From a virus, in IMG/VR virus record IMGVR_UViG_3300025112_000146, positions 1-27,375 of that record: DNA of 27,375 nt. One strand, written 5' to 3'. Shown here piece by piece: positions 19,801 to 27,375 of this stretch. The notes under the pieces are model-generated. The model was not told where the DNA came from. It was given only the letters and a program-made list of their open reading frames with translations, and made no database searches. Both the position numbers and the translations under genes were made by a program. Positions within the stretch are counted from its first letter, which is position 1; each line of letters starts with the position of its first letter.

Positions 19801-20250
19801 AAAACTGTGCGCTTTACGAAGGCCGGACTCCCTTCCGCGCGGGAGGCCCGCATTGTTGCTGATTTAGAACAAACGGCGACTGGTCTGATTCTTCTTAAAA
19901 ATGTATATAATGTAGATGTAAAGACTGTGGGGAACGCTCTTTTTGTGCCCGGAATGAAAATATACATAGACCCTGCTGGGATTAGCCCTTCGATGGGGTC
20001 TCCCAATCGATCGGGAGACTGGTCAAATATTCTGGGAATTGGAGGCTATCATGTGATAACACAAGTACAGTCTTTCATCGAAGGGGGCAAATTTGAAACA
20101 ACCATAAAGGCCATCTTTGAGGGCGCCGGCGTACACGGCGCCATTGGGTTCACGGGAGAGGTGCTGACCGAGGAAAGCGACAACTGCCCAGACCGCGTTC
20201 AGGCGTCGAGCATTCTTCGTGGTCCCTCCACATCGGGAGGCGCTTCTTAA
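16900..20250 (+). CDS. Very large baseplate hub / structural protein
   Basis: An 1116-residue protein starting two bases after the LysM stop; AGAGG at 16888-16892 overlaps the end of that gene. Residues 1-360 are charged, helical and low in recognisable motifs (an Ala/Glu-rich part near 255-310). A core at about 365-570 begins LRPSEISGLVPQIRLFKVEY and includes SFDWTLHGRDPFTARR and a Ser-Phe-Asp-Glu-Leu helix. The C-terminal 110 residues contain LFVPGMKIYID and GGYHVITQVQSFIEGGKFET, the kind of ending seen in gp27/XkdQ-type hub proteins that sit below the tube. Tape measure, LysM, then hub is also the order of the PBSX and Mu tails. I infer hub or hub-wedge fusion; the N-terminal third is unassigned. 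Confidence 0.5.
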   Translation: MAATAQEIEEAIQAEFGGRYTEEHINGEANSVRQASNVSRMAIILDMDYKIFAPTVSNSSSPTAILQRYATMEQQDALGRGYNEDGTPSPAADFYPRAQNSFIYQITGDQTGDQRSELDALVRQANQATNVPKVDGTAGLEQRLQDEFAARVRAADLGDVADSQFDVDPEINRGWTWAGPNWGNRDRNAAATRGTEENTLWCAQEEFVWFAYNMQILNNGVAPTETAVFEAMDLDRYVQLYLEIKIRPLLVEAFEALAEAEEAGEVDGHDDEGNLNQEGREFLADQARQRGRDALVPEEAGSAAEQAQLKRLAEQSFLVDFLPEFAVLNQDRASTYENYFWMLHGHTDTIMNKLLYNPAFETLDTLRPSEISGLVPQIRLFKVEYATEGNSVEYEIPFASHIDPADIQAMMGTSFDRGRGAGLKSFDWTLHGRDPFTARRDIFGELKLYFQSFDELLRPRAIQSVDSQHTNSDFTYMELVNFAGPGTVRHREDGSWNPEYYRLRVEVGWADPGTNNSFLGSGAEKSQKQRAIVESRSVMYLTANDHTIDISDEGIINLTISYIAYQEASYMDNNSDILATEHTRQRRLDRRADLAAAAEACDTRARERILRDYTKEFRREKYNSFQRILGELYDDRSIKYVSVPVGTLESYINYGEQGVNIRGLDRLFGAARGGNQQATFDVRTAAQQTGLLMEALGLDVGSLDETEITEAIQNLTYGDTADNGNVRVQFFYLGDLIRVALRNISTSTQGAVSGLRVPGKLDRNLRILLGPITFKRRNCPADPTEDCHTEILYNINLADIPIAVNLYVEWFLRTAVGRELDTYPILAFLRDLANSLITSVIRDQSHGLTNVPRQSLKLRSNFITAAATAGGADVLATSRNILPASSGGTDYTRIDVDGTMGATLRSGRPLLRSPVDNERAYHYMALYALNLGTTQPLGGHLEDRGGVPGDRARGIYHFAIAKDRGIFKTVRFTKAGLPSAREARIVADLEQTATGLILLKNVYNVDVKTVGNALFVPGMKIYIDPAGISPSMGSPNRSGDWSNILGIGGYHVITQVQSFIEGGKFETTIKAIFEGAGVHGAIGFTGEVLTEESDNCPDRVQASSILRGPSTSGGAS

Positions 20251-21471
20251 ATGGGCAGGTTTCAAGGTAAAAATAAATTAAACTCTGGTGAGCTTTTTTA
20301 CGAAAGGATGCACTATTCTCACGAAGCCTTCGAAAGGGAGTTTGGCTCCCTTTACGTTAAGCCGGTAGCTGATTTTTATTTTGCGGAAAGGGCTTTATAC
20401 GGAAGGATTAACAAAAATCATAATCCGATAATTTTAAATAAAGCGAATACTAAAAACATTGGGAATAAGGCCGATAGTGTCCAAACGCTGTCCGCCGTTA
20501 ACTTTGTTGTAGATGCGTTTGAGGCTTTAGCGGCGGACTTTAACAAGGCCGTCTTTAACGGAAAACTTGATTTACAGGATCCACACCTTTCCGAGCTGAC
20601 TGCTTACGGCGCTTATCAGGATGTGGATACCCTGTACACCAGATACCTTGATGGTTTGGAGGCGGTGTTTCGGGAGAGCTTTTTAGATGGAGCCCGCAAC
20701 CGACGCATTCGGGACTTTAAAAGTTTTCTTCCCGTATTTTTTGAATTTATAAAACAAGTGTCCTCAACCGGCGGCGTTACTATGGTTGCGTTTATTGCTA
20801 GCAATTTTTGCAATTCAACGATTTCGGGACTTACAATTAGCGTGTCCGAGCTGGACCCTACCGATGATAGCAAAAAAGAAGAATTTTTGACTAGTCCCAA
20901 TTTTGATTATTATCGGGAGCTTCTTAAGTCTCATGGGTTTTATATTAATAAGCATCGTCCGTGGGAGTTGGTCGCGGATATCGCCAGCCCTTTTATGTTG
21001 CAGTATGCCAATGCTTACGGGCTGTCGACCGAGAACGATGTTCTAAAACGATATTATCACCGGGCCGGCGGCGCTGGAGTTACTTTGCTTAAACGCCTAG
21101 CTTTGCGTTTTTATAATGGCGTGGTGGTAAGAAGAAAATTTGTGACAGTGCGCCAGAATGGGGTAACGAAGCGAATTTGCCGCCGCGTAACAAATCTTGA
21201 AACTGTCGATCGAACCTATTCGCAAAACTTTTGGCTTGACAAATACACCGATATACGATATGCTGAACAACGTGAGCCAATTAGCCCAGGAGAGTTGATC
21301 TCTCTTAAGAAAGATCAGGCAGGGCTGTTCGCCACAAAGGGGCTAAAATATACCCTTTCTCATATTAACAACAAGCTGAATGGTTTTGCGAATTATGAAG
21401 GCTCATTTGCCAAGATTCGGCTCCGTAGACAGTCTCAGCTAGAAAACCGACCTCTTAAACCCACATATTAA
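20251..21471 (+). CDS. Unknown 406-residue protein ending the structural block
   Basis: The start codon touches the hub stop (TAAATG) and the stop overlaps the polymerase start (TAATG), so it is coupled on both sides. The protein is helical, rich in Phe, Tyr, Arg and Lys, with no signal peptide. One moderately hydrophobic stretch (TGGVTMVAFIASNFCN, about 172-187) is flanked by charged helices. Other visible segments are FYFAERALYGRINKNHNPII and, near the end, KGLKYTLSHINNKLNGFANY. I do not recognise a family. Its place suggests a baseplate or virion protein, but neighbouring the replication genes it could equally belong to that set. Local base use is more AT-rich than the hub gene. Confidence 0.75.
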   Translation: MGRFQGKNKLNSGELFYERMHYSHEAFEREFGSLYVKPVADFYFAERALYGRINKNHNPIILNKANTKNIGNKADSVQTLSAVNFVVDAFEALAADFNKAVFNGKLDLQDPHLSELTAYGAYQDVDTLYTRYLDGLEAVFRESFLDGARNRRIRDFKSFLPVFFEFIKQVSSTGGVTMVAFIASNFCNSTISGLTISVSELDPTDDSKKEEFLTSPNFDYYRELLKSHGFYINKHRPWELVADIASPFMLQYANAYGLSTENDVLKRYYHRAGGAGVTLLKRLALRFYNGVVVRRKFVTVRQNGVTKRICRRVTNLETVDRTYSQNFWLDKYTDIRYAEQREPISPGELISLKKDQAGLFATKGLKYTLSHINNKLNGFANYEGSFAKIRLRRQSQLENRPLKPTY

Positions 21472-22658
21472 TGCTATTTCAGACACTCGATAACAAAGAG
21501 GAATGTGTCGGCGTCTATTGCAACAGCGAGTTGCACTTCGACACTATTCCAGACAACCTAACACACACTTGGAACTACTCAGCCCTCCTCCGAGAGAGGG
21601 AGAATGTGGAGTATGCGTTCCTATATGCCCAGAAGGCGCTAGGAGACGTCTGTGCGCCCCACCTCGCTCAGGAGTGGGGAGCCATCAATGACAGGATGAA
21701 GGCGTTCCTACGTGCCTTCACGGCGGCTAAAGTAGACCTTACTGAAAACTGCTTTTTTGACCTCGTTAACGAGCGGTTTTTGCGGGAGTATTGCGAGATC
21801 AGAAACAAGATTACTGAGTATGTTTTTGAGAACCACAGCAAACCCGAAAACTATGATTTTCTTGTAGAATTAACAAAGGTGCTTCACGACATTAAACACA
21901 GAAAACTAAACGTTGATCCGTGGGCTCTTAAAGACATTATCCATGAGAAGAGAGCGCGCGATTTTACACAAAAGTTAAGCGAGATTTCACTTTCGTGCGA
22001 CTACAATATCTTTGGAACGAAGACCGGTCGCCTCACCACGAAGAGAAGCAGCTTCCCCATTCTCACAATGGACAAGAAGTTCAGAAAAGTAATAAAGCCA
22101 ACTAATGATTGGTTTGTGTCGCTTGATTTTAATGGCGCCGAGCTACGCACTTTTCTGGCTTTGTCCGAAATGGAGCAGCCAGATGTGGATGTTCACGAGT
22201 GGAACCGCCAAAATGTATATCGTGGCATCGGAACGAGGGATGAGGCTAAAGAAAGGTTCTTTGCGTGGCTTTATAACCCCAAGTCGCACGATCATTTAAC
22301 TGATGATGCCTATGATAAGGACGCCGTGATGGAAAAATATTGGTATGAGAGTGCCATCACCAACCCTTTTGGCAGAACTATCGCGGCAGACGCCCATCAT
22401 GCAATGAGCTATCTTATTCAGAGCACTTGTTCGGACGTGGTGTTGCGCCAAATGATCAAGCTTGATAAGTACCTGCAAGATAAGGCGTCCTTCGTTGCAT
22501 TTTGCGTCCACGATGAGGTGGTTTTGGACATAGAAGACGGTGACTGCTCCTTAATCAATATTTTAGTTGACCATTTTTCAAATACTCCTTTAGGAAATTT
22601 CGGAGTTAATGTAAAATATGGGAAGAGTTATGGGGATATGAGAGAATGGAAACAATAA
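21471..22658 (+). CDS. Family A DNA polymerase, polymerase domain only
   Basis: A 395-residue DNA polymerase of the Pol I/T7 family. Visible motifs are GTKTGRLTT (182-190) before the palm; motif A SLDFNGAELR with catalytic D219; motif B with R256, K260, F264 and Y268 in exact R-x3-K-x3-F-x3-Y spacing; TNPFGR and LIQSTCSDVVLRQM (315-328); and motif C FCVHDEVVLDIE with H347, D348 and E349. F264 is equivalent to E. coli Pol I F762. The first 170 residues are thumb-like. No 3'-5' exonuclease domain is present, although T7 polymerase (704) and Pol I carry one, so proofreading must be separate or absent. The start overlaps the previous stop by one base and the end overlaps the next gene by 13. Confidence 0.9.
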   Translation: MLFQTLDNKEECVGVYCNSELHFDTIPDNLTHTWNYSALLRERENVEYAFLYAQKALGDVCAPHLAQEWGAINDRMKAFLRAFTAAKVDLTENCFFDLVNERFLREYCEIRNKITEYVFENHSKPENYDFLVELTKVLHDIKHRKLNVDPWALKDIIHEKRARDFTQKLSEISLSCDYNIFGTKTGRLTTKRSSFPILTMDKKFRKVIKPTNDWFVSLDFNGAELRTFLALSEMEQPDVDVHEWNRQNVYRGIGTRDEAKERFFAWLYNPKSHDHLTDDAYDKDAVMEKYWYESAITNPFGRTIAADAHHAMSYLIQSTCSDVVLRQMIKLDKYLQDKASFVAFCVHDEVVLDIEDGDCSLINILVDHFSNTPLGNFGVNVKYGKSYGDMREWKQ

Positions 22659-23482
22659 TTGGACTCGGCAAAGCAGGGTGTGCGATCGCCGATAGATTCT
22701 CACAATATCCGCAGTATGAAGCCTATAAAATGGATGTGGGGCTTAAGCGCACTCCGCGAACTTACGGACTCAAGGCTGCTGGCCATCCGGAAGGCCACGA
22801 AGAGTCCATAGGAAGCTTGAAAAGGTTTTTTAAGGATGTGGGGGGCGATGTATTATTTACTGTGGGGGGTAGTGGTGCCGTTTCTGGTGCGTCTTTGAGA
22901 ATACTTGAACAGCTTAAAAAATGTAATCTTTATATTTTATATATTTATTCCGATCCTGAACTCCTCGGGGAAACCGCTCGAATGCAGCAGCGCCTCACTC
23001 TCAATGTCTTTCAGGAATACTCTCGCTCGGGCGTTTTTCAAAAAGTCATTTTGATAGATAACTCGCGCTTGGAAGAAATCCTGGGGGATATCCCTATAAT
23101 TGGTTTCCACAACACATTAAATGAACTGGTGGTGCCCACCATTCATATGGTAAACGTGCTCTCTCGTTCCGTTAGTATTATGGGTAATATTTCGCCTCCG
23201 CACGATATCAGCAGGATTGTTTCTTATGGCCTTGTAGATTTTGAAACCGGCACAGAAAACTTGTTTTTTCCTCTTGACAACGTTCGGGAAAAGGTGTATT
23301 ATTATGCTATAAATGAGGACAAGCTGAAGGAGCAGGGCGGAATTCACAAGAAGATCATTGCGCAGGTTAAGGCAAACGCCCAAAATACCAAGACAACGTA
23401 TGGGATTTACCCCACGCAGTATGATCAGGACTATGTTTATTGCGTTGCCTACAGCTCGATAATTCAAGAAAATAACTCTTGA
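22646..23482 (+). CDS. Divergent FtsZ/tubulin-like protein
   Basis: A 278-residue protein whose layout follows FtsZ. It opens with a Rossmann-type strand and Gly loop, IIGLGKAGCAIADRF (4-18), like the start of FtsZ. At 68-92, DVLFTVGGSGAVSGASLRIL matches the FtsZ strand and phosphate loop before its helix, but the loop reads GGSGAVSG instead of GGGTGTG. Then a strand (NLYILYIYSDP, 94-104) leads to VILIDNSRLEEILGD (134-148), like FtsZ IPNDKLLKVL. The segment ISPPHDISRIVSYGLVDFET (182-201) sits where the T7 catalytic loop is expected, with only D187 kept. Phage tubulins (PhuZ, TubZ) form filaments that position DNA. Altered nucleotide and catalytic loops leave GTPase activity doubtful. It is coupled to the polymerase by a 13-base overlap. 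Confidence 0.55.
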   Translation: METIIGLGKAGCAIADRFSQYPQYEAYKMDVGLKRTPRTYGLKAAGHPEGHEESIGSLKRFFKDVGGDVLFTVGGSGAVSGASLRILEQLKKCNLYILYIYSDPELLGETARMQQRLTLNVFQEYSRSGVFQKVILIDNSRLEEILGDIPIIGFHNTLNELVVPTIHMVNVLSRSVSIMGNISPPHDISRIVSYGLVDFETGTENLFFPLDNVREKVYYYAINEDKLKEQGGIHKKIIAQVKANAQNTKTTYGIYPTQYDQDYVYCVAYSSIIQENNS

Positions 23483-23507
23483 CATTTGTCGCCCAATTTG
23501 ATATAAT
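23479..23507 (+). promoter_or_regulatory. Consensus sigma70 promoter for the SSB gene
   Basis: TTGACA (23479-23484), a spacer of exactly 17 bases, then TATAAT (23502-23507). Both hexamers are perfect. The -35 box overlaps the TGA stop of the preceding gene (23480-23482). Transcription should start near 23514, giving a leader of about 54 bases. This fits strong early transcription by unmodified host RNA polymerase. Confidence 0.88.
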
Positions 23508-23516
23508 AAGAGTCAG

Positions 23517-23537
23517 AAGTCAGGAAGATTCGCCTGG
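23517..23537 (+). promoter_or_regulatory. Short hairpin in SSB leader
   Basis: GTCAGG (23519-23524) can pair with CCTGGC (23533-23538) with one G-U pair across an 8-base loop. It lies just before a leader block shared with the downstream ATPase gene. The T4 gp32 mRNA also has a structured leader used in autogenous control; the parallel is suggestive only. Confidence 0.35.
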
Positions 23538-23567
23538 CTTACTATAACCAAAAAAGGAAAAAACAAC
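23538..23567 (+). promoter_or_regulatory. Shared leader element, copy 1
   Basis: CTTACTATAACCAAAAAAGG followed by AAAAAACAAC leads into the SSB ATG. A near-identical block (CTTACTATAAC, A-run, GG, A-run, CATG) precedes the GHKL ATPase at 24387. It contains the ribosome site. A common translational operator is one reading. Confidence 0.5.
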
Positions 23568-24320
23568 ATGGGAATCAATCTAGATAAGATGCGAGCAAAG
23601 CTCGTTGCAGTGCAAAATAAGGGCGATCGACAGAGCATTTTCTGGCGTCCCAACGACGGGAATCAGACTATTCGTATCGTGCCCACGGAAGACGGAGATC
23701 CCTTCAAGGAGGTCTTCTTTCATTATAACGTAACTAAGGGTGGAATTTTATGCCCTAAGCGCAACTTCGGCGATGAGTGCCCAATCTGTGAGTTCGCGTC
23801 CAATCTATGGCGCGAAGGCGTAGACAACAATGACGAGGACTCGAAACGCACAGCTAAGAACCTGTTCGTTCGCCAGCGCTTCTTCAGTCCGGTTCTCATC
23901 CGTGGCGAAGAGACTGATGGTGTCCGCTGGTGGGGCTACGGTAAGACCGCTTACGAAAGCCTGCTCAATCTTGTTCTAAACCCGGATTACGGTGACATCA
24001 CCGATACTGAAGAGGGCACTGATCTTGTGCTCAATTATGGAAAGCCTGCTGGTGCTTCGTATCCGCAGACTAAGCTGCAGCCCCGACGACGCCCGTCGCT
24101 TCTGGCTGACGATGCGGATAGGACTGCAGAGCTTCTTGGCTCGATTGAAGACTTCATGGGGGTTTTCGAGCGAAAGACTCCCCAAGACGTCGAAAAGATC
24201 CTTGAGGAGTTTATTTCGGGGGGTGTTGATGCAGAAGGTAACTCGACAGAGACCGTACAGTATGCTAAGAACAACGCTGACACCGTTGACAATGCGTTCC
24301 AAGAGTTGATGAACGCCTAA
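23568..24320 (+). CDS. 32: Single-stranded DNA-binding protein (gp32-like)
   Basis: A 250-residue single-stranded DNA-binding protein of the T4 gp32 type, which coats DNA at forks and recombination intermediates. It shows FWRPNDGNQTIRIVP (25-39), a zinc-binding set H52, C62, C71, C74 (T4 uses H64, C77, C87, C90), then VRQRFFSPVLIRGEE, WWGYGKTAYESLL and YPQTKLQPRRRPSLL, all consistent with the OB-fold core. T4 gp32 is 301 residues; this one is shorter, mainly after residue 200, but it still ends with an acidic, helical tail where partner proteins would dock. It has its own perfect sigma70 promoter and a structured, A-rich leader. Neighbouring polymerase and RecA/UvsX are its expected partners. 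Confidence 0.92.
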   Translation: MGINLDKMRAKLVAVQNKGDRQSIFWRPNDGNQTIRIVPTEDGDPFKEVFFHYNVTKGGILCPKRNFGDECPICEFASNLWREGVDNNDEDSKRTAKNLFVRQRFFSPVLIRGEETDGVRWWGYGKTAYESLLNLVLNPDYGDITDTEEGTDLVLNYGKPAGASYPQTKLQPRRRPSLLADDADRTAELLGSIEDFMGVFERKTPQDVEKILEEFISGGVDAEGNSTETVQYAKNNADTVDNAFQELMNA

Positions 24321-24330
24321 GACAGATACC

Positions 24331-24356
24331 GCAGGGGGCACGATTGTGCCCCCTGC
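24331..24356 (+). other. Strong RNA hairpin without U-tract
   Basis: GCAGGGGGCAC (24331-24341), loop GATT, GTGCCCCCTGC (24346-24356): a perfect 11-bp stem just after the SSB stop. No run of T follows, so it is not a standard terminator. It may protect the SSB mRNA 3' end, pause polymerase, or limit read-through into the ATPase gene. Confidence 0.7.
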
Positions 24357-24386
24357 TGGTTCAGGGGTTGCGGAGATTTGCGCAAC

Positions 24387-24408
24387 TTACTATAACAAAA
24401 AGGAAAAC
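24387..24408 (+). promoter_or_regulatory. Shared leader element, copy 2
   Basis: CTTACTATAACAAAAAGG plus AAAA directly precedes CATG of the ATPase gene and matches the SSB leader at 23538 apart from shorter A-runs. TATAAC (24391-24396) with TTGCGG 17 bases upstream could be read as a weak promoter, but it would start the mRNA within or after the ribosome site. Confidence 0.5.
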
Positions 24409-26139
24409 ATGAATTATACAATTAAAGCAGATGAGAGAGCCCTCTCTAATTTACTAGACACGCTGAGCCGCGGCTGTAAAAATTCACAAATTATTAGAGA
24501 GCTTCTATGGAACGCCATCGAAGCAATCTTAAGATATCATGCCCAGCTTGGTGTAGAGCCCAAGGGGGTGGTTACCATAACCAAGGACAAGCTGGACCCC
24601 CGCAAAGCGTTGTTTTGTAACTCCCTTGGTGACGCTCTTACTCGCGCGATTGTGGGCGCCCACTTGGTGTCCCTGGGGAGCAGTGGCAATACCGATGAAG
24701 AAGGGGATAATTTTGGAATTGGGGCAAAGGTCGCGTATTTGCCAAACAACCCACTCGGACTTATATATCGCTGCCGCACAGAAATGATGCAATTTCAATT
24801 CGGCAAGAACGAGAACAACTGCTATGGACTTATCCCAGAAGAAGTCGAACTCATCGACGAGGAGGGCAATCTAGTCGACACGGAGTGGGCGGACTTCCCT
24901 GATATCAGACCAGATGAGTTTACACTGCCAGACAGTGAAACCGAGGTTAAGATGCTTGGCTCCGCTGAAGACGAAGACACTTGGAAGCAAATATGCAAGT
25001 TTGCTGGTGCGGAGCATGCGGGAACCGATCCTTGGTCTGGGCACACCATCGCTGATTTCATTGAGCAGCGTATGTGGGCTCTGCCTTGCCCCGGAATTGA
25101 GATTCGCGTCTCAATTTATAATGAAGCCGGCGACGAGATAAGTCAGCGTCTCATTCGTCCACTAAAAGACATCATTCATTCATACCCTGTTAGTGGGAAG
25201 GTGGAGCTGTCCAGCGGGGTGAATATTCATTACTTTGCAAAGAAGTTCAACAAGGGCGTGAAGCTCGGCGATCGCCGACGCACTGGTTATGTAGGGTGTG
25301 TCGTGGGGAGGGAGTCATACGTCGATACTGCTATATCCCCAAGCAGCCGGCAAAAGAACATGTCAGAGTGGGGAATCTTCACTCACCATAAGCATATTGG
25401 GATTTATGCTGAACTGCCCGAAGAGCTGGGCTTCCGCCCACAGCCAAATCGCTGCAGCGTAAGGGGTCCTAATGGCGAAGTTCCCCCACTGTCAGATTAT
25501 GCCGAAGAGTTTCGCAGGAACATTCCCGAAAACCTTAAGCAGTGGATGAGCGAGCTACACACCCCCCATAACTCTACCATCCAAGATGAGATGAACAGGC
25601 TGTTTAGAAAGACAGCTACAGCCTCTAGTACTCAAGGGACAGGCTCTAGCAGAAAGACTTCAGTTGCTGGAGGCTCTGTGTCCAGCCGTGGAAGCCTAAG
25701 CAGCGGCACAAGCTCACCCCGAAGGCGCAAAAAGACAAGAGCAGCGGGCATCGGGTCCAACAAGACATCTACAGCTCCGGAATTTTTACTGCAGAGCGAC
25801 GGCGCTGACTCTCCTGCCGTAACACTTGATACGACTAGCTGGGTTATAACTGTTAATATGGATAGTCCTTTGTTTTTGCATAGATTTGCAAAGCTGAGGG
25901 CATACAAGGGCGCACCGGACGAATTGCTTAAGACTACAGTTGGTGAAACCATGTACCAAGTCTCGTGCCTCTTCTACATAGAGGCAAGGAATGCCCACGC
26001 TAGTGGCAAGTCCATGGACGCGATTCATCGAGACATCGAAGGAAAATTCGATAGTTGCTATGATGAGACGCGAGCTAAGCAGCGGCTCACCAAGCAGCTC
26101 AATCGGGTTGAACGTACCGAGGAAGCTTCAGCCGCCTAG
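24409..26139 (+). CDS. GHKL-type ATPase, possibly rIIA-like
   Basis: A 576-residue protein. ATG 24409 is chosen for its AAAAAGG; a longer frame from GTG 24346 begins inside the hairpin. The N-terminus shows the Bergerat ATP fold: N-box RELLWNAIEA (30-39, with E31, N35, E38) and a glycine lid DNFGIGAKVA (100-109). The G1 position reads CNSLGDALT (70-78), without the usual Asp-x-Gly. The middle domain (about 225-380) resembles the second domain of Hsp90/MutL/MORC-type proteins. Residues about 402-456 are a Ser/Gly/Arg-rich linker with a basic RRRKK patch. The last 115 residues are helical and charged. T4 rIIA (725 residues) is a GHKL protein too, so a relative is possible, but a chaperone, topoisomerase-like or anti-defence role is equally open. 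Confidence 0.75.
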   Translation: MNYTIKADERALSNLLDTLSRGCKNSQIIRELLWNAIEAILRYHAQLGVEPKGVVTITKDKLDPRKALFCNSLGDALTRAIVGAHLVSLGSSGNTDEEGDNFGIGAKVAYLPNNPLGLIYRCRTEMMQFQFGKNENNCYGLIPEEVELIDEEGNLVDTEWADFPDIRPDEFTLPDSETEVKMLGSAEDEDTWKQICKFAGAEHAGTDPWSGHTIADFIEQRMWALPCPGIEIRVSIYNEAGDEISQRLIRPLKDIIHSYPVSGKVELSSGVNIHYFAKKFNKGVKLGDRRRTGYVGCVVGRESYVDTAISPSSRQKNMSEWGIFTHHKHIGIYAELPEELGFRPQPNRCSVRGPNGEVPPLSDYAEEFRRNIPENLKQWMSELHTPHNSTIQDEMNRLFRKTATASSTQGTGSSRKTSVAGGSVSSRGSLSSGTSSPRRRKKTRAAGIGSNKTSTAPEFLLQSDGADSPAVTLDTTSWVITVNMDSPLFLHRFAKLRAYKGAPDELLKTTVGETMYQVSCLFYIEARNAHASGKSMDAIHRDIEGKFDSCYDETRAKQRLTKQLNRVERTEEASAA

Positions 26140-26146
26140 AGTAACG

Positions 26147-26962
26147 ATGCCCAAGACACCCCTACGATATCCGGGTGGCAAATCCCGTGCTGTAAAGCAC
26201 ATTCTGCCACTCATCCCCGAGGATATAACGGAGCTTTGTTCTCCGTTCCTCGGGGGTGGGTCGGTGGAGCTTGCTGTAGCTGAACGAGGAACGCCAGTCC
26301 ACGCTTACGACATCTTTGAGCCGCTTGTGTGGTTCTGGAATGCCCTCTTGACAGACCCCCGATTGCTGGCGGTTTGTGCCGATTCCTACCGAAAAGAGCA
26401 TGCCGACTTTGAAGGAAAAAGAGGTCTTTTAAAAGAAGACTTTAGGCGCCTTCGGGATGAGCTGAGAGAGGAAGGCCGCTTTTCCTACGACAACGCAGCC
26501 AAGCTCTACGCTATCAATCGCAGCAGCTTTTCAGGGGCAACGTTCTCTGGGGGGTGGTCAAAACGAGCATCTTACGCTCGTTTTACGGATAGCTCAATTG
26601 ATCGTATTTATAATTTCCGAGAGTCCAACATGGCAGTAAGCTGTGAGGGCTTTAAAACTTCAATTAATAGGCACCCTGACGCATTCCTATATTGCGACCC
26701 GCCATACTTGCTAGGTGCTGACAAGGACAAGCTATATGGCGATAGGGGCAATACGCACGCAGGCTTTGACCACAGAGCCCTGTATGATATACTCAGCGAA
26801 CGAACCAACTGGGTATTGTCATACAACGACTGTCCCGAAATACGAGACCTATACGAGAGCTATGAGGTTTGCGAAGCTGAATGGGCTTACGGAATGAAGA
26901 ATGTAGGTGGAACCAAGATGGACAAGTCATCAGAAATATTAATCATCAATAAGGAGACATAA
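26147..26962 (+). CDS. dam: N6-adenine DNA methyltransferase (D12 class, Dam-like)
   Basis: A 271-residue enzyme that transfers a methyl group from S-adenosylmethionine to adenine in DNA. Motifs are LRYPGGKSR (6-14) and SPFLGGGSVELA (32-43) for cofactor binding, NRSSFSGATFSGGWS (124-138) typical of the D12 group, and catalytic DPPY at 184-187. The length agrees with T4 Dam (259). ATG 26147 lies eight bases after the ATPase stop; a longer frame from 25991 overlaps the ATPase and lacks motifs. The target is unknown; GATC is usual for this group. The enzyme may mask phage DNA from host restriction or mimic host methylation. No restriction partner is visible. Confidence 0.88.
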   Translation: MPKTPLRYPGGKSRAVKHILPLIPEDITELCSPFLGGGSVELAVAERGTPVHAYDIFEPLVWFWNALLTDPRLLAVCADSYRKEHADFEGKRGLLKEDFRRLRDELREEGRFSYDNAAKLYAINRSSFSGATFSGGWSKRASYARFTDSSIDRIYNFRESNMAVSCEGFKTSINRHPDAFLYCDPPYLLGADKDKLYGDRGNTHAGFDHRALYDILSERTNWVLSYNDCPEIRDLYESYEVCEAEWAYGMKNVGGTKMDKSSEILIINKET

Positions 26963-27375
26963 TGGCTAGAGTTTCAAAAGCCAAGACAGGAAAGCTGTCT
27001 TTGGCGGATATGAGAAATCTTATTAATAAGAAGGCGGGAATGAATGTCGCCCACGATCTAACAAAAGAAAACCCCACGGAAGTTAAAGACTGGATTCCAA
27101 CCGGCTCCCGCTGGCTGGACTCAATCATCTGCCGCGGCAAGTCAGCGGGCATTCCCGTTGGCAAGACGACAGAGATCGCCGGTCTAGAGGCGACAGGCAA
27201 GTCATACATGGCTGCGCAGATTGCCGGCAACGCCCAGAAAATGGGGATCGACGTAGTTTACTTTGATTCAGAGTCAGCCATCGATCCGACCTTCCTTGTG
27301 AAGGCTGGTTGCGACCTAGAGCAACTTCTATATATTCAAGCCGCGTCTGTGGAGTTCGTTCTAGAGACTATCGAG
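26962..27375 (+). CDS. uvsX: RecA/UvsX recombinase, 5' part
   Basis: The first 138 residues of a strand-exchange protein; the gene runs off the right edge. ATG 26962 shares its A with the methyltransferase stop (TAATG), and AAGGAG lies at 26951-26956. The Walker A loop is GLEATGKS (74-81), preceded by GIPVGKTTEIA as in RecA (LPMGRIVEIYG). VVYFDSESAIDPTFL (98-112) is the strand with the catalytic acidic residue. The 45-residue N-terminal extension (basic, helical) would mediate filament contacts. The protein forms filaments on single-stranded DNA, with the gp32-like protein as partner, for repair and recombination-driven replication. The motifs look somewhat closer to RecA than to T4 UvsX. Confidence 0.92.
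   Translation, partial: MARVSKAKTGKLSLADMRNLINKKAGMNVAHDLTKENPTEVKDWIPTGSRWLDSIICRGKSAGIPVGKTTEIAGLEATGKSYMAAQIAGNAQKMGIDVVYFDSESAIDPTFLVKAGCDLEQLLYIQAASVEFVLETIE

Follow-up and report, generated by a model that had tools for sequence, protein, structure and literature searches.

The 27,375-base window analyzed here, a virus record, holds a short gene between those of a DNA polymerase and a single-strand DNA-binding protein (SSB), and the initial annotation took this gene for a divergent relative of FtsZ and tubulin. Tubulin-superfamily proteins are self-assembling GTPases that serve in cell division, in the positioning of plasmid and phage DNA, and in the cytoskeleton. The question raised by the locus is whether a protein with such a fold is indeed encoded there and what it could contribute next to a polymerase. 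The window also encodes tail sheath and tail tube proteins and a major capsid protein of the T4 type (gp23, E value of 3e-73), and we therefore regard its source as a T4-like contractile-tailed phage.

The T1 gene and its family

The open reading frame, which we named T1, lies on the plus strand at 22646-23482, with its ATG at 22646 and its stop codon ending at 23482, and encodes 278 residues; coordinates and neighbors are as first annotated. Its start overlaps the end of the polymerase gene (21471-22658, plus strand, with the stop codon at 22656-22658), which encodes a family A enzyme of 395 residues consisting of the polymerase domain only (PF00476, 3.7e-13; phrog_17, 2e-17). Downstream, 85 bases separate the end of T1 from the start of a gene for a gp32-like SSB of 250 residues (23568-24320, plus strand; PF08804, 7.6e-15; phrog_1192, 2.4e-22).

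T1 is a genuine gene and not a chance reading frame, because relatives are encoded by at least 587 stretches in IMG/VR, all 145 of the 145 relatives extracted are intact and full length, and the ratio of nonsynonymous to synonymous substitutions (dN/dS) is about 0.06. The lower bound of 587 comes from a pattern scan; an earlier pattern scan had confirmed 91. The extracted relatives are 274 to 299 residues long, with pairwise identities as low as 30%. The dN/dS values, calculated from close relatives, were 0.06 for T1 and 0.07 for the polymerase and are rough, since dS exceeds 1 and is saturated. All 20 large records inspected (54 to 204 kb) carry exactly one copy of T1. Judging by the record numbers, these phages are probably marine.

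No family was recognized when the single T1 sequence was searched against Pfam, PHROGs, and PDB sequences and with HMMER. Cultured phages gave no match in a tblastn search of 50,697 phage records with four diverse T1 members, and no cellular relative was found when 84,980 bacterial and archaeal genomes were scanned with two conserved peptide patterns. Nor did a literature search that excluded subscription papers and preprints find a published description of the family. The T1 family is large in environmental phages and missing from the cultured-phage collection, Pfam, and PHROGs, and it has therefore been hidden from annotation.

Predicted fold and putative nucleotide pocket

An alignment of 116 diverse T1 members (A4) served as input for an AlphaFold2 model and for residue conservation. 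The model has a pLDDT of 95.3 and a pTM of 0.92 (each of the five models exceeds 93), and it shows a two-domain tubulin fold with a Rossmann-like GTPase domain, a core helix H7, and a C-terminal alpha/beta domain. The final strand reaches residue 270 of the 278, with no helix or tail beyond. Foldseek against the PDB matched the model to FtsZ (E value of 5.8e-13, TM score of about 0.70), TubZ (4ei7, 2.3e-12), and microtubule tubulin (1.8e-11). Among viral structures the top match was a phage protein of 452 residues called FtsZ (E value of 4.5e-14, query-normalized TM score of 0.78). Other phage tubulins, PhuZ among them, came next. T1 is thus predicted, almost certainly correctly, to have a tubulin/FtsZ superfamily fold, as the initial annotation had proposed; this claim, which rests on structure prediction, is strong, and an earlier, shallower model (pLDDT of 73) matched the same structural families.

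At the sequence level, support for membership in the superfamily is weak. The Pfam Tubulin profile (PF00091) matched 11 of 60 T1 members, with a best E value of 0.0055 and without reaching the gathering score, and the matches that could be located covered the N-terminal glycine loop only, at about 13 bits against a cutoff of 33. An hhalign comparison with Escherichia coli FtsZ placed the motifs in register at a very low overall probability that is not significant. The T1 profile aligned colinearly over the GTPase domain with T2, a second FtsZ-like phage family (344 to 410 residues; alignment A5) that was first met in one T1 phage, with an E value of 0.003 and a probability of 11%; as a control, A4 scored 20 against the unrelated polymerase and 30 against T2. 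According to the annotation, a profile of some other Rossmann family that fitted T1 better would count against its reading; none was seen. A reading of T1 as an NAD(P)-binding Rossmann protein (TrkA_N, E value of 0.0007; ApbA) was rejected, as these Pfam matches are sporadic, the located dehydrogenase-type ones are short and lie at the N-terminal glycine loop, and the whole fold fits tubulins.

The order of motifs along T1 follows that of FtsZ, as first noticed: a GLGxAG loop, a strand with a short glycine-rich loop, (V/I)(D/S)N at the IPND position, and a helix matching H7. The first glycine loop of the pocket, the T1-loop equivalent (residues 6 to 12, GLGxAGC; 22661-22681, plus strand), is highly conserved among the 116 members, with G6 at 98%, G8 at 100%, and G11 at 96%. 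The T4 phosphate loop (residues 75 to 83, GSGAVSGAS; 22868-22894, plus strand), which aligns with GGGGGTGSA of T2, is degenerate. Its family form over the same 116 members is GxGx(I/V)(S/T)(G/A) instead of the FtsZ signature GGGTG(S/T)G, and Gly75 or Gly77 is replaced in 15 to 19% of members. The degeneracy had also been described as a loop one residue shorter than in FtsZ, a difference that depends on the alignment, with two gaps against E. coli FtsZ and none against T2.

On the guanine side of the pocket, two asparagines are each 93% conserved. Asn139 (23060-23062, plus strand) belongs to the (V/I)(D/S)N motif, and Asn159 (23120-23122, plus strand) lies in the core helix; profile alignments of low overall probability put them on N165 and N186 of E. 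coli FtsZ and on the invariant N204 and N225 of T2. In FtsZ and tubulin, the asparagines at these positions contact the guanine base. The T7-loop/H8 region (residues 174 to 190; 23165-23215, plus strand) lacks the catalytic acids, most of which the annotation had already found missing. No Asp or Glu is conserved there, the best position being 187, which is acidic in 69% of the 116 members, and the model runs from the core helix to strand S7 through about 16 residues with no helix H8. The T7 acids are needed for GTP hydrolysis across the subunit interface. The family also has invariant residues of its own, Q123, R127, S128, and M168, together with H167 at 98%, for which we know of no counterpart. 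Judging from the pocket residues, which were assigned by alignment, T1 would be expected to bind a nucleotide without canonical hydrolysis; the phosphate loop may, on the other hand, be degraded enough that nucleotide binding is lost.

Linkage to the polymerase and the slot in sister phages

In loci collected through T1 itself, the polymerase lies upstream and the SSB downstream wherever the contig reaches far enough. To avoid circularity, we used a polymerase-profile scan instead of the T1 anchor on 74 newly fetched loci. T1 followed the polymerase in 72 of these; in the remaining two, the sequence stops too early to hold it. Polymerase and T1 meet or almost meet in 57 of the 72 loci and lie about 0.1 to 1.5 kb apart in the other 15; when T1- and polymerase-anchored loci are taken together, a minority has 0.2 to 2.6 kb of other DNA between them. 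The position between polymerase and SSB is fixed across the family, which bears out the suggested tie to replication. The annotation had also placed T1 beside RecA. The SSB does adjoin T1, but the RecA/UvsX-like recombinase is near and not adjacent, with two lineage-specific open reading frames between it and the SSB. The start of the recombinase gene (26962-27375, plus strand) is cut by the window end and was assigned by eye from opening residues that resemble the UvsX-like protein of locus L284, which itself matches phrog_97 at 6e-62.

Several other genes of the neighborhood deserve mention. A gene of 406 residues (20251-21471) lies directly upstream of the polymerase; it is present in 125 loci, evolves fast (median identity of 0.25), and had no match in a Pfam scan. 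A 597-residue open reading frame at 24346-26139 has motifs like those of GHKL/HSP90-type ATPases by eye (RELLWNAIEA and GDNFGIGAKVA), with no relative in the other loci searched and no Pfam or PHROG assignment. A probable D12-class adenine DNA methylase (25991-26962; PGGK and DPPY by eye), between SSB and RecA, has relatives in only 17 loci and so occupies a variable slot.

Ahead of the SSB gene, and overlapping the stop codon of T1, is a host-type consensus sigma-70 promoter, TTGACA-17-TATAAT, with 12 of 12 matching positions (23479-23507, plus strand). Sites with at least 10 of 12 positions were found at the T1 end in 92 of 126 relatives, compared with 9 of 126 same-length controls inside the gene. 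The promoter between T1 and SSB is thus conserved. It gives SSB a start of its own and leaves T1 in one unit with the polymerase.

Among 72 nonredundant loci in which all four genes are present, the median identity between pairs was 0.468 for the polymerase, 0.435 for T1, and 0.584 for SSB, compared with 0.249 for the gene upstream, and T1 distances correlated best with those of the polymerase (r = 0.82). T1 evolves as a core replication protein rather than as a host-directed inhibitor.

The slot that T1 fills can be compared with that of sister phages carrying T2. At least 107 stretches in IMG/VR encode T2, on contigs of up to 281 kb; examples are L176 (1027-2121, minus strand), G018:C1:103389-104480, and loci L179-L258. 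No T2 was found among cultured phages. T2 keeps GGxGGTGS and an acidic FDxxDL motif matching the catalytic T7 region, its profile aligns with FtsZ at a probability of 96%, and Pfam Tubulin matches all 29 of the members scanned. A conserved acidic DDFDFV motif stands at its N terminus. T2 has no fixed neighbors, and 5 of 20 T2 records also contain T1.

Phages with T2 only have a related SSB (36 to 39% identity), and their polymerase, SSB, and replication genes are arrayed in the same way. In four of the seven cases read, a 3'-5' exonuclease subunit occupies their polymerase-SSB slot (by phrog_192 in the one scanned and by size and opening sequence in the others), and T1 therefore occupies a slot that in related phages belongs to a polymerase accessory. 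The T1-phage polymerase itself has no exonuclease domain. None of 16 large T1-phage records (from G001-G028), which may themselves be incomplete, contained RNase_T (PF00929) or DNA_pol_A_exo1 (PF01612), and phrog_192 gave one marginal match; RNase_T was present in three of five T2-only records. The equivalence of the T1 slot with that of the exonuclease subunit is suggestive. In sister phages (L277-L283), small open reading frames of about 160 to 195 residues with a conserved N-terminal (R/K)xxIRxxLxE-like motif directly follow the polymerase. No tubulin homolog was found in the polymerase/SSB slot of cultured relatives, which are Bacillus, Lysinibacillus, Flavobacterium, and Microcystis phages with a similar polymerase and SSB.

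Proposed role and known systems

The interpretation that we favor, at somewhat better than even confidence, is that T1 belongs to the tubulin superfamily, is catalytically degenerate, and serves replication as an accessory or scaffold linked to the polymerase. T1 would have lost the FtsZ-type GTPase machinery while keeping the tubulin fold, and across a large clade of T4-like phages, all uncultured, it would belong to the core of the replication module, tied to the polymerase. Guanine nucleotide would most likely still be bound, though not put through the usual T7-driven cycle of hydrolysis, and T1 would serve the phage DNA polymerase or replisome as an accessory or scaffold and not as a dynamic cytomotive filament. 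We infer that T1 binds nucleotide, that it contacts the polymerase physically, and that it affects replication; the neighborhood of the two genes could reflect shared expression timing without contact. That T1 is a dedicated subunit or a processivity or fidelity factor of the family A polymerase, in the slot of the sister phages' proofreading exonuclease, seems to us rather unlikely. Such a function is proposed because the slot is shared with the exonuclease and the T1 phages themselves, in the 16 large records, show no recognizable proofreading exonuclease beyond the one marginal match.

Of the roles suggested by the initial annotation, the tie to replication is supported, and both a DNA-positioning filament and a decoy for host FtsZ are weakened. 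Like PhuZ and TubZ, T1 might form filaments that position or organize phage DNA during replication, with a non-canonical or slow nucleotide cycle or as static filaments. The predicted superfamily fold with both domains present, the structural matches to phage PhuZ proteins, and the location in a replication module would all fit, and there are phage precedents for cytoskeletal proteins in DNA positioning and replication, namely PhuZ (PMC4244570, PMC3678025) and the actin-like AlpC (PMC4446434), both of which polymerize. However, the T7 acids for hydrolysis across the interface are not conserved in T1, and this loss weakens the case for a dynamic filament. The C-terminal helix or tail of PhuZ and TubZ (PMC3678025) is missing as well, there is no tubC-like iteron array within 20200-25000, and no TubR gene was recognized beside T1, whose neighbors are the polymerase and SSB. 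We therefore consider a filament role possible but doubtful.

Binding to host FtsZ as a decoy or cap, which would block cell division during infection, appears improbable. An FtsZ-like fold without hydrolysis residues might suit a capping subunit, and FtsZ is the closest PDB match of the predicted structure. Host-directed inhibitors, however, usually vary and move, and T1 evolves like the polymerase: it is about as conserved, covaries with it, and is universal in a divergent phage clade, fixed in the replication module. T1 has also not retained the residues with which T7 of FtsZ makes longitudinal contacts. There is similarly little probability that T1 has given up nucleotide binding and serves only a structural purpose, as an adaptor or a virion-associated protein whose location is coincidental. 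The degenerate T4 loop, with its replaced glycines, and the position of the polymerase directly after structural (tail) genes speak for it, but conservation is 93% or higher in the first glycine loop and at both asparagines on the guanine side, and sister phages have replication genes in the same slot.

If the replication accessory reading is true, a universal, single-copy, polymerase-linked tubulin fold without hydrolysis residues would be a fold recruited into DNA replication itself. The data suggest a cytoskeletal fold turned into part of the phage DNA-copying machinery, and T1 offers a clear test case for a tubulin fold working without the GTPase cycle.

Among known systems, FtsZ shares with T1 the two-domain fold with its core helix, and the glycine loops and two guanine-side asparagines are in register. 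T1 differs in having no GGGTG(S/T)G, T7 acids, or C-terminal linker and tail peptide, and in being viral only and tied to a DNA polymerase. PhuZ of nucleus-forming jumbo phages is likewise a phage-encoded tubulin-superfamily protein and is matched structurally (E value of 1e-6), but no sequence similarity to T1 was found, including by hhalign against a single PhuZ sequence. The phiKZ protein has 327 residues, is encoded about 8 kb from its own DNA polymerase, and carries a C-terminal polymerization tail (PMC3678025); the helix H11 and acidic tail or knuckle that PhuZ uses for polymerization (PMC3678025) are missing in the T1 model. TubZ of the plasmid and phage TubZRC partition systems resembles T1 in fold, whereas T1 has no C-terminal tail and has lost the catalytic residues. 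The top viral structural match, UniProt A0A6J5RW92 (annotated "FtsZ Cell division GTPase," from an uncultured Caudovirales phage), is only 16% identical to T1 and much longer. Bacteria and archaea are reported to have divergent FtsZ-superfamily families that lack the known motifs, in an account with no mention of phages (PMC2875224). T2 is longer than T1, canonical in its GGxGGTGS and FDxxDL motifs, recognized by Pfam, and free of fixed neighbors, yet it occurs in phages related to the T1 phages and matches T1 colinearly across the GTPase domain.
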